36,810 nt of DNA from Planctomycetia bacterium (GTDB lineage: Bacteria > Planctomycetota > Phycisphaerae > FEN-1346): contig PMZT01000057.1 of assembly GCA_003170085.1 (NCBI GenBank), forward strand, positions 1 to 36,810, given 5' to 3'. The notes under the pieces are model-generated. The model was not told the DNA's origin. It searched no databases and was given only the letters and a program-made list of their open reading frames with translations. Position numbers and translations under genes: made by a program. Shown here in pieces: positions 187 through 25,172 of this stretch. Numbering within the stretch: position 1 is the first letter of the stretch; each line of letters begins with the position of its first letter.

Positions 187-2124
187 ATGGGTTTTGCTGA
201 TGCCGTCAACTACAAGGCCATTGAACTGTGCCGCATCGTCGTCCGTATGACCACCGAGGCCGAGTCGGGCCATCCGAGTTCCGGCTGCGCGCTGGCCCAC
301 ATCGTGTCGGTCCTCATGTACCACACGATGCGGTACGATGTCGCGAACCCGTGGAATCCGCTGAGCGACCGGCTGGTGCTTAGCGAGGGCCACGCGGTGC
401 CGATCATTTACGCGGCCTACGGCGACCTGGGCGGCGTGTTTGGGCCTGATCCGAAGAACGCCCGCAAGATGACGCTCGAGGATTGCTGGTCGCTCCGCCG
501 CATCGACAGCCTGATCGACGGCCATCCGAACCCGGCCATCGGGTTCCCGTTCTTCGACGCCGCCACGGGCTCGCTGGGGCAGGGCGTCAGCGTGGCCGCC
601 GGCCTGGCTCTGGCGGCGCGGATGGACGGGATCGACAAGACGATCTACTGCATCTGCGGCGATGCCGAGGTCCGCGAGGGCCAGGTGTGGGAAGCGATCG
701 ATTTTCTGGCCGATCACCAGTTGACGAACGTCCGCGTTATCATCAACTGCAACAAGATGGGGCAGAGCGATTACGTGAGCCATCAGCAGAGCGCCGAGGT
801 CCTGGCCAAGAAGGTCAAGGCGTACGGCCTGCATCCGATCACCATCGACGGCCACGATCCGGTGGCCATCCGGAAGGCCCTGGCCGCGAAGCCGCCGCAG
901 GGCAAGCCCGTGGTTGTCATCGCCAAGACCGTGAAGGGCTGGGGCGTGCCGGCGTCGCAGAAGGTGGGCTACCACGGCAAACCGTTGTCGCGCGAGGAAA
1001 TGGCAGTGGCGCTGGCCGAGCTGAAGCTGCCCGAGCAGAAGCCCGACATGGTTCTCTGCCCGCCGATGCCGAGGGGCGAAATCCCGGCGGCCGCGAAGGA
1101 ACCGATCACGTTGCCCCCGCCTGACCTCATGAAACTGGCCGAGGGCACGAAGTTCGTCAGCAACGTCCAGAAGGGCAAAGTGGCCACGCGGCAGGCGTAC
1201 GGCCTGGCGCTGCGGGCGCTCGGCCGGGTGTCGAAGCGGATCGTGGCCCTCGACGCCGACGTCTCGAATTCCACGTTCTCCGAGATTTTTGCGAAGGAGT
1301 TCCCCGAACGCTACGTGGAGTGCCGCATTGCCGAGCAGAACATGGTCTCGGTGGCGTCGGGCCTGGCGGCGGCCGGCAAGATTCCGTTCGTCAGCACCTT
1401 CGCCAAGTTCCTCGTGCGGGCGTATGACCAGGTGGAGATGGCCGCCAACTCGTGCGCGAACGTGAAGCTCGTGGGCAGCCATTCCGGCATCAGCCTGGGC
1501 GCCGACGGCCCCAGCCAGATGGGCGTGGTCGATACGGCGTTCTTCGGGGCACTGGCGAGCGTCCGTACGCCCAAGGGGCACCCGGGCGCCATCGCGCTGA
1601 ACCCGTGCGACGCCATCAGCACGATCAAGCTGGCGGCACTCATGGCCGAGTACGACGGCCTGGTTTACATGCGGACCTTGCGGCCGGAAACGGTCCTCCT
1701 GTACAAGCCCGAGGAGCCGTTCACGCTCGTCGGCCAGAAGACCCTGGCCCAGGGCAAGGACCTGACGCTGGTGTCGTGGGGCTACATGATTCACGAGTGC
1801 CGGAAGGCCCTCGAGGCGCTCAAGGCCCAGGGCATCGAGTGCGGCCTGGTGGACGCCTACAGTCTGCCGCTGGCCGACAACTTTCTGGACGCCATTGGCG
1901 CCCGCGACGGCGCGAAGCTGCTGGTGGTCGAGGACAACTACGCCGGCGGCATCGGCAGCGCGGTGGCGGTGGCGGCGGCGCGGCGCGGCAGAATCCGCGT
2001 GGATGCGATGACGTGCGAGCGCATGCCGAAGTCCGGCAAGAGCGCCGATGACGTGCTGAAGTTCGTGGCGATCGACCAGACGGCGATCGTTCGTCGGGCC
2101 AAGGCGATTCTCGGCAAGGCCTGA
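187..2124 (+). CDS. tkt: Transketolase
   Basis: This is a full-length transketolase (645 residues), a cytosolic thiamine-diphosphate enzyme that moves two-carbon ketol units in the non-oxidative pentose phosphate pathway. The N-terminal diphosphate-binding domain has SEGHA (66-70), the GSLGQG segment (128-133) and the TPP/metal motif starting GDAEVREG at 158, ending near Asn187. The pyrimidine-binding domain (about 330-500) carries the cofactor-activating glutamate in RIAEQN (Glu383). A C-terminal transketolase domain follows. I chose ATG 187 because GGAAGGAG lies just upstream and the protein then begins at the usual family position. The frame stays open upstream to 103, but that stretch is not conserved-looking. 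guaB follows 96 bp later on the same strand. The GDAE in place of the more common GDGE is the only oddity. Confidence 0.95.
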   Translation: MGFADAVNYKAIELCRIVVRMTTEAESGHPSSGCALAHIVSVLMYHTMRYDVANPWNPLSDRLVLSEGHAVPIIYAAYGDLGGVFGPDPKNARKMTLEDCWSLRRIDSLIDGHPNPAIGFPFFDAATGSLGQGVSVAAGLALAARMDGIDKTIYCICGDAEVREGQVWEAIDFLADHQLTNVRVIINCNKMGQSDYVSHQQSAEVLAKKVKAYGLHPITIDGHDPVAIRKALAAKPPQGKPVVVIAKTVKGWGVPASQKVGYHGKPLSREEMAVALAELKLPEQKPDMVLCPPMPRGEIPAAAKEPITLPPPDLMKLAEGTKFVSNVQKGKVATRQAYGLALRALGRVSKRIVALDADVSNSTFSEIFAKEFPERYVECRIAEQNMVSVASGLAAAGKIPFVSTFAKFLVRAYDQVEMAANSCANVKLVGSHSGISLGADGPSQMGVVDTAFFGALASVRTPKGHPGAIALNPCDAISTIKLAALMAEYDGLVYMRTLRPETVLLYKPEEPFTLVGQKTLAQGKDLTLVSWGYMIHECRKALEALKAQGIECGLVDAYSLPLADNFLDAIGARDGAKLLVVEDNYAGGIGSAVAVAAARRGRIRVDAMTCERMPKSGKSADDVLKFVAIDQTAIVRRAKAILGKA

Positions 2125-14841: not shown

Positions 14842-14951
14842 CCCGGTGTCTCCAGCGGTTATTCTAGGTTGCGGCGCGGGAGCGGTCAAAGGAAACCCCC
14901 GCTGCCCAGAGATAAAGACGTATGCGGCGCCGGATGCTCTCGCACAACCCG

Positions 14952-14991
14952 AAAAAAGGGCGTCTCCGAAACCGTTCTGGCTCGGAGACGC
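14952..14991 (-). terminator. Strong intrinsic terminator (minus strand)
   Basis: A perfect 10-bp stem is formed by TCGGAGACGC (14982-14991) and GCGTCTCCGA (14960-14969). On the minus strand it is followed by CC and six T (14957-14952). It lies 111 bp upstream of the next gene start (14841) and not after any minus-strand gene. It must therefore end a short RNA or act as an attenuator. Confidence 0.85.
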
Positions 14992-15092
14992 TCGACCGCC
15001 CTTCGGCCCGACAGTCAGACCCCTCTTAACTGTCCGTGCCCAGACGGCACAGGCCCAACCCATCATCCCGGGCGAAAGTCATCGCACATCGC
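14952..15092 (-). ncRNA. Candidate structured small RNA or riboswitch-like leader
   Basis: The transcript from the promoter at 15099-15128 to the terminator would be about 140 nt. Read on minus it can fold as follows. Stem P1 pairs 15070-15074 with 14997-15001 (CGCCC/GGGCG). Stem P2 pairs GGCC 15052-15055 with GGCC 15005-15008. P2 encloses two hairpins: GTGCC/GGCAC (15046-15050 with 15036-15040) and GACAGT/ACTGTC (15029-15034 with 15010-15015). The terminator hairpin follows. I recognise no known class (not SRP, tmRNA, glycine, ZTP, fluoride or c-di-GMP by sequence). It could be a free small RNA or a leader controlling the secreted-protein/aroB genes. Confidence 0.6.
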
Positions 15093-15098
15093 TGATTT

Positions 15099-15128
15099 AT
15101 TATTCGCAGCCGCTGGGCGATCCGGCAA
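15099..15128 (-). promoter_or_regulatory. Promoter of the structured RNA
   Basis: Read on the minus strand, TTGCCG (15128-15123) is followed after 18 bp by AATAAT (15104-15099), matching five of six -10 positions. Transcription would begin near 15092, just before the folded region. Confidence 0.55.
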
Positions 15129-15259: not shown

Positions 15260-16633
15260 ATGGAACTCGATACCTACGAAGCGGCGCTCCAGTATCTCTT
15301 CTCGGCCACCGATTACGAGAAGATGCGCCACGTCCGCTACAACGCCGACACGTTCAGTCTGGACCGCATGAGGCGGCTGCTCGAGCGGATGGGCTCGCCC
15401 GAGCGGCGGCTGCGGAGCGTCCACGTGGCCGGGACCAAGGGAAAGGGCTCCACCGCGGCCATGGTGCACGCGATGGCCCTCGACGCGGGCCTGCGGGTGG
15501 GGCTTTACACGTCGCCGCACCTCGTCGATATCCGCGAGCGGATTCGCGTGGGTGCCGACGAGATCCCGCCGGAGTCGCTGCGCCGCCTGATCGCCGGCGC
15601 GCAGCCGATCCTCGACCGGATGCGGGCCGAAGACGATCCGCCGACGTTCTTCGAGATCTTTACGGCGCTCGCCTTCCGCCATTTCGCCGACGCCGCCGTT
15701 GACCTCGCCGTGGTCGAGGTCGGCATGGGCGGGCGGCTCGACGCCACCAACGTGCTCGTGCCCGACGTCTCGGTCATCACGGCCCTCAGCCTTGACCACA
15801 CGCAGCAACTCGGGAGCACCCTGGCGGCGATCGCCGGCGAGAAGGCGGGCATCGTGAAGCCCGGCGTGCCCGTGGTCTCGCAACCGCAGCCGGCGGAGGC
15901 GCTGGCGGTCATCGAGGCCGCGTGCCGCGAGGCCGCCGCGCCGCTCGTCCTCGTGGGCCGCCACGTGACCTACGAGTGGCAACCGGCGGAGGAGGCGGGG
16001 CGGCGCGGCGGACGGCTGACGGTCCGCACGCCCGCCGCCGTATACGAGGACCTCTTCGTGCCGCTCATGGGCGAGCACCAGGCCCTGAACGCCTGTGCTG
16101 CCATCGCCGCCGCCGAACGGGCCGGGCCCCTGGCGGCGCGATTGACGCCCGAGCGGGTCCGTGCGGCGTTCGGACGCGTCGAGTGGCCGGGCCGCATGGA
16201 GTTTGTAACCGGCGGCGTAGCGAGGGCATGCGGGTGGGCCGGCAGCACCGGGCCGGACCTTGTGCTCGACGGTGCCCACAACCGGGCGAGCGTCGAACGA
16301 CTGGTCGAGGCGCTATTGCGGCACTTTTACGGACGGCGGATGGCCGTCGTTTTCGCCGCCGCCGCCGACAAGGACCTCGACGGCATGGTGGCGGCGCTGG
16401 CCGAGAAGATGCCCGGCGTCGCAGTGGTGTTCACGCGCAGCGCGAACCCGCGCGCCGCCGAGCCGGACGACCTGGCGGCACGTTTTGCCCGCGCCGGCGG
16501 GCGCGGCGGCGAAACGGCCGCCGATGCGCGGTCGGCGATCGAGGACGCCGCGGCGCACGTCGGCCCGGAAGGACTGGTGGTGGTCTGCGGGAGCCTGTAC
16601 CTGGTGGGAGAAGTAAAGAAGTATGTCACCTAG
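15260..16633 (+). CDS. folC: Folylpolyglutamate synthase / dihydrofolate synthase
   Basis: FolC adds glutamate to dihydropteroate and/or to folates in an ATP-dependent reaction in the cytosol. The 457-residue protein belongs to the Mur-ligase superfamily. It has P-loop GTKGKGST near residue 57, VEVGMGGRLDATN, the folate-type loop SLDHTQQLGSTLAAIAGEKAGI, then MGEHQALNA and the C-terminal LDGAHN motif. ATG 15260 starts at the family position, and an upstream open frame to 14819 lacks similarity. The gene ends six bases before the stop of the convergent amrA. It shares the folate pathway with folP at 30657-31886, but the two genes are far apart. Confidence 0.94.
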   Translation: MELDTYEAALQYLFSATDYEKMRHVRYNADTFSLDRMRRLLERMGSPERRLRSVHVAGTKGKGSTAAMVHAMALDAGLRVGLYTSPHLVDIRERIRVGADEIPPESLRRLIAGAQPILDRMRAEDDPPTFFEIFTALAFRHFADAAVDLAVVEVGMGGRLDATNVLVPDVSVITALSLDHTQQLGSTLAAIAGEKAGIVKPGVPVVSQPQPAEALAVIEAACREAAAPLVLVGRHVTYEWQPAEEAGRRGGRLTVRTPAAVYEDLFVPLMGEHQALNACAAIAAAERAGPLAARLTPERVRAAFGRVEWPGRMEFVTGGVARACGWAGSTGPDLVLDGAHNRASVERLVEALLRHFYGRRMAVVFAAAADKDLDGMVAALAEKMPGVAVVFTRSANPRAAEPDDLAARFARAGGRGGETAADARSAIEDAAAHVGPEGLVVVCGSLYLVGEVKKYVT

Positions 16634-25085: not shown

Positions 25086-25172
25086 GCGGGAGTGGCGGAA
25101 CTGGCAGACGCGCAAGGCTTAGGACCTTGTGCCCGTAAGGGCCTGGGGGTTCGAGTCCCCCCTCCCGCACCA
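25086..25172 (+). tRNA. tRNA-Leu (anticodon UAG)
   Basis: A complete class II tRNA is present. The acceptor stem GCGGGAG (25086-25092) pairs with CTCCCGC (25162-25168). The anticodon stem is CAAGG/CCTTG with loop CTTAGGA, and the anticodon TAG is at 25120-25122 (reads CUA and wobble). A long variable arm and the TTCGAGT T-loop follow. Discriminator A and CCA are encoded at 25169-25172. The long variable arm fits Leu. Confidence 0.97.

Follow-up and report, generated by a model that had tools for sequence, protein, structure and literature searches.

A probable stand-alone small RNA gene with a conserved GAGGGG loop beside folC in one family of Planctomycetota

The 36,810-nt stretch of planctomycete DNA analysed here (the window) carries, on the minus strand between folC and a gene for a secreted protein, a predicted transcription unit of about 140 nt with its own promoter and a terminator. 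The question raised by this locus is whether the unit encodes a small RNA that acts on its own or forms a leader through which the downstream genes are controlled, and an earlier note on the window had allowed for both. Our comparison of six genomes of the window's family favours a stand-alone small RNA gene, a reading that we hold, from conserved sequence signals, with a probability of roughly 0.8. Within this reading, the RNA is most likely a lineage-specific, trans-acting small RNA that uses a conserved GAGGGG loop for recognition.

Transcription signals and fold of the window's copy

The predicted small RNA spans 14952..15092 (minus strand, about 140 nt), with its start placed by promoter spacing and its end by the terminator. 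The promoter, TTGCCG-18-AATAAT, lies at 15128-15099 of the minus strand and comprises a -35 element, TTGCCG (15123..15128), and a -10 region, GCGAATAAT (15099..15107), in which AATAAT occupies 15104-15099. Judged by these elements the promoter is sigma-70-like and would direct transcription of the unit, and promoter-like sites occur here at 2 per 2 kb versus 0.2 expected in shuffled sequence. At the other end, the intrinsic terminator (14952..14991, minus strand) has a perfect 10-bp stem, in which GCGTCTCCGA (14991-14982) pairs with TCGGAGACGC (14969-14960) around a loop of 12 nt, followed by CC and then six T (14957-14952), with a folding energy of -22.2 kcal/mol and a z score of -5.05. This terminator was missing from a simple terminator scan because its loop exceeds the 8-nt limit of that scan. 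Both signals are present as the earlier note had described them.

The compact fold proposed in that note fared less evenly. The minimum-energy structure of 15092-14952 does contain nested stems enclosing two hairpins (z -2.32), the second of which is conserved among relatives; the multi-stem arrangement is not. The excess stability of the full fold comes mostly from the terminator, and the body alone is scarcely more stable than its shuffles (z -1.05), which makes the body fold unconvincing when the window is considered by itself. Promoter and terminator exceed what chance would give; the exact fold of the body, taken alone, does not. Within the body, a 5' hairpin, CCC-GGGATGAT-GGG (15059..15072, minus strand), has similar CCC-(G..TTGY)-GGG counterparts in three relatives, a weaker conservation that was judged by eye. 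The middle hairpin, GTGCC-GTCTG-GGCAC (15036..15050, minus strand), falls in a part of variable length and is not conserved, and the 5' half of the RNA is poorly conserved overall. The conserved element of the body is hairpin P3, GACAGTTA-AGAGGGGTC-TGACTGTC (15010..15034, minus strand), whose apical loop holds GAGGGG at 15020..15025 (minus strand), the proposed recognition element.

Conservation and covariation within one family

Orthologues of the downstream protein in the five other sampled genomes of the family share 43-48% identity with the window's protein. In the four relatives whose contig extends far enough (G001, G002, G004 and G005; the G004 copy lies on contig VGYT01000007.1, G004:C7), a promoter between folC and the downstream gene is followed by an RNA of 138-199 nt and by a strong terminator. 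A covariance model of P3 and the terminator (R1), built from five members and searched against 61 genomes, recovered all five together with a sixth in G003 (39.1 bits, E 2.5e-5), a blind match in that this copy was in no way used for the model. The G003 copy adjoins folC on another contig, with a promoter TTGCCG...GCGAACAAT and a loop UGAGGGGC, and the homologues in the five relatives measure about 138-199 nt. All six sampled family genomes carry the unit beside folC with its promoter, its terminator and its GAGGGG-loop hairpin, and share the promoter signature TTGYC-15/16-SCGAANAAT, in which both the TTGYC and the SCGAANAAT elements are kept in 6/6. We also considered this signature as the mark of a regulon; the N16-spaced pattern occurs 0-3 times per family genome, and its other sites either resemble coding sequence or show no RNA of this kind.

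This joint conservation bears directly on the simplest sceptical reading, in which a chance promoter and a stray intergenic terminator happen to flank nothing specific. Such a reading would account for a body that folds close to random and for a blastn search of the RNA against 198 relatives that returned short chance matches only, but it leaves promoter, loop and terminator conserved together at the same place in 6/6 genomes, in addition to the blind match, and we consider it barely credible.

The distribution of the RNA was examined with a second model, built from six members and searched against 397 genomes of the class, which gave family members scores of 55-87 bits and no other genome more than 40 bits. 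Of the outside matches (G015, G027, G006 and others; 24-40 bits), the 15 that were read are terminators, most of them directly after genes, and were rejected because they lack both a GAGGGG-loop hairpin and the promoter. On this basis the RNA is confined to one family, as far as sampled.

Within the family, P3 and the terminator are maintained by compensatory change. The alignment used for the pair statistics follows the structure of the model, which tilts them towards that structure, and the terminator contributes 13 of its 20 pairs. In this alignment 93.3% of cells are paired and 14/20 pairs show two-sided changes. The covariation score of 0.650 compares with 0.293 in shuffles, none of which (0/500) did as well; sliding the partners by one column reduced pairing to about 35%, and slid controls overall gave 35-51%. 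These comparisons rest on six sequences, all from one family. The GAGGGG motif is unpaired in the P3 loop in 6/6 genomes, 34-42 nt before the terminator, and a hairpin presenting it arises in 1.5-4.5% of shuffled bodies (0.015-0.045 for each member), which gives a product of about 1e-10 when relatedness is ignored.

Beyond P3, G001, G003, G004 and G005 share an elongated hairpin in which P1 (8-10 bp), an internal loop, P2 (2-4 bp) and a small purine-rich internal loop or bulge lead up to P3 as the cap, with P1-P2-P3 stem sequences that differ among the four. P1 and P2 were compared by hand, without statistics, and MAFFT alignment of the whole RNA or of P1-P3 misplaced the variable parts. The two shortest copies, those of the window's genome (G000) and G002, have a different outer pairing from the other four, which is why the outer stems drawn in the earlier note are not a family feature; of the stems on whose conservation that note had staked its proposal, the second hairpin (15034-15010) and the terminator are retained with covariation in 6/6.

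A coding function is addressed by the same data. The window's copy contains an 18-codon frame (MTFARDDGLGLCRLGTDS), which could make the locus part of a short peptide gene, either its coding region or its 5' UTR. However, no open reading frame is conserved in the RNA among the six members, none of the other five has a similar frame, and G005 lacks any frame of at least 8 codons before the terminator. The covariation, moreover, marks structure rather than codons, and a peptide gene is accordingly very improbable.

The downstream gene and control by readthrough

The gene downstream of the RNA (P0001, 13795..14841, minus strand) encodes a secreted or membrane protein without a Pfam family and is followed by aroB, and the folC-like gene (15260..16633, plus strand), which owes its name to the earlier note and to sequence resemblance, is divergent from the small RNA. 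The second option of the earlier note was a transcriptional riboswitch; under this rival reading the RNA, as riboswitch or leader, would terminate transcription and so control the secreted-protein and aroB genes. In its favour, the RNA and the downstream gene share a strand and a conserved synteny, with the RNA upstream and a terminator at its end. A riboswitch of this kind implies that no promoter stands between RNA and gene, but a conserved TTGACC-17-TAGAAT-type promoter intervenes: in the window it is found at 14861..14889 (minus strand), after the RNA terminator and about 20 nt before the downstream ATG, it is kept upstream of the orthologous genes, and it follows the terminator in all five genomes that have both on one contig. 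Across genomes the RNA terminator and the downstream start codon are separated by anything between about 90 and about 410 nt, and no mutually exclusive antiterminator was seen that the members have in common. The downstream gene of G006, from the sister family, retains the same kind of promoter, and no such RNA is present there. Because the downstream promoter is kept after the terminator, the gap varies and the G006 gene occurs without the RNA, we regard the RNA as an independent unit rather than a leader. The riboswitch option is thus unlikely, and of the two alternatives in the earlier note it is the small RNA gene, with promoter and terminator conserved together in 6/6 family genomes, that stands.

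Two further observations concern this region. Beyond its own family, where clear orthologues of the downstream protein (E < 1e-50) were seen, the order and class yielded only weak ones (E 1e-25 and worse). In G005 (contig C130), the stretch that separates the downstream gene from the RNA terminator contains two sub-threshold matches to the Acido-Lenti-1 RNA (RF01687), of 30 and 20.4 bits against a threshold of 37, at L034:1168-1212 (+) and 1094-1139 (-); both lie in an apparent repeat insertion that lengthens the G005 intergenic region.

Known RNA classes, partner proteins and a proposed mode of action

The earlier note could not match the RNA to a known class, and at the level of Rfam this holds. 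No family in Rfam 15 reaches the gathering threshold for the window's RNA, and the RNAs of four relatives returned weak, mutually inconsistent matches only. The weak matches in the window, sR60 and ceN40, were set aside as below threshold and inconsistent between members.

Partner proteins were sought in the same genomes. The six family genomes, whose assemblies are 74-95% complete, yielded no CsrA, and the protein is present in the sister family and in another family of the class (G000 to G008 were searched), which suggests that it was lost in the window's lineage. Hfq and ProQ were not found in the nine genomes searched. Incomplete assemblies limit each single absence, although gaps would hardly account for the same absence in six or in nine genomes. 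Since these three proteins are the ones commonly associated with trans-acting RNAs, their absence weighs against the pairing mechanism proposed below.

In the mechanism that we propose, the sigma-70-like promoter would give rise to a transcript of about 140 nt that ends at the strong intrinsic terminator. The 5' part of this RNA varies; its 3' part forms a hairpin, conserved as the covariation shows, that exposes GAGGGG in its loop directly ahead of the terminator hairpin. The RNA would act in trans with no help from Hfq, ProQ or CsrA, and its G-rich loop, presented by the stem, could pair with C-rich (CCCCUC-like) stretches of one or more mRNAs and thereby alter their translation or stability. 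Pairing with such stretches is the simplest reading because the six loop bases are fixed while the stem sequence drifts; given a stand-alone small RNA gene, we put it at about even odds. No conserved CCCCTC-like site was found in the start regions of folC or the secreted-protein gene, and the target, if the loop does pair, would therefore lie elsewhere.

Small RNAs with a loop seed, known from Gram-positive and GC-rich bacteria, offer a parallel to this proposed mode of action. RsaE and RNAIII of Staphylococcus aureus are loop-seed RNAs with low Hfq dependence, whose C-rich (UCCC) loops match the Shine-Dalgarno sequence. The new RNA resembles them as a stand-alone intergenic gene in the range of 100-500 nt, with an intrinsic terminator, a short conserved unpaired loop motif and no need for Hfq; in contrast, its loop is G-rich and would require C-rich partners, and there is no sequence relation.

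The main rival to mRNA pairing is that the conserved loop binds a protein, with the RNA serving as a sponge or scaffold for an RNA-binding protein in the manner of CsrB/RsmZ or 6S but with another partner. An invariant loop on freely changing stems is equally expected of a protein site, GAGGGG is present twice in G001 and G002, and neither Hfq nor ProQ was found to serve a classical pairing RNA. Most members, however, contain a single GAGGGG, unlike multi-site sponges, and the two precedents fit poorly. Like CsrB, CsrC, RsmY and RsmZ, it is a small RNA that stands alone, presents G-rich loops and ends at an intrinsic terminator, but the GGA motifs that CsrA needs are not at conserved places, there is one conserved loop in most members, and the absence of CsrA from the six genomes makes a CsrA sponge unlikely. 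The likeness to 6S RNA is that of a stand-alone structured RNA of similar size; the new RNA, however, shows no central bubble and no match to the 6S model (RF00013) at the locus, and a true 6S RNA is encoded on another contig of the same genome (G000:C90). We therefore treat binding of a protein as a possibility, though a doubtful one, beside the pairing of the loop with mRNA.

A regulatory RNA that is conserved within one lineage of Planctomycetota and operates without Hfq, ProQ or CsrA, its GAGGGG loop read by an RNA-binding protein or by C-rich mRNAs, is offered here as a tentative model. If true, it would open a way into the study of riboregulation in a phylum for which we found next to none described. 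Small RNAs are barely described in Planctomycetota, and in one survey the whole Planctomycetes-Verrucomicrobia-Chlamydiae group accounts for only 8 of them (PMC9029176). The Rhodopirellula-1 motif, listed for Planctomycetes and Proteobacteria without an Rfam accession (PMC2864571), is likewise a candidate structured RNA in Planctomycetes and is known here from its listing alone. With that reservation, the RNA appears to represent a new family of conventional bacterial regulatory RNA, without an Rfam family. It does not alter how small RNAs are understood in general; it is kept in genomes where searches for all three customary partner proteins of small RNAs came back empty, and the locus is a concrete place to ask how such bacteria use regulatory RNA.

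Other structured RNAs were located in the same searches. The bacterial small SRP RNA (RF00169), which the P1-P2-P3 arrangement of four members recalls in its elongated hairpin, internal loops and conserved apex, was rejected for this locus, where its model has no match and the apex is GAGGGG rather than a GNRA tetraloop; the SRP RNA itself lies at G000:C280. The 6S RNA passes the Rfam threshold in two of the six family genomes (G000:C90 and G001:C1), and the others may hold divergent 6S RNAs or have assembly gaps. Across the whole window, the sole Rfam match is a tRNA at 25086-25169 (+).
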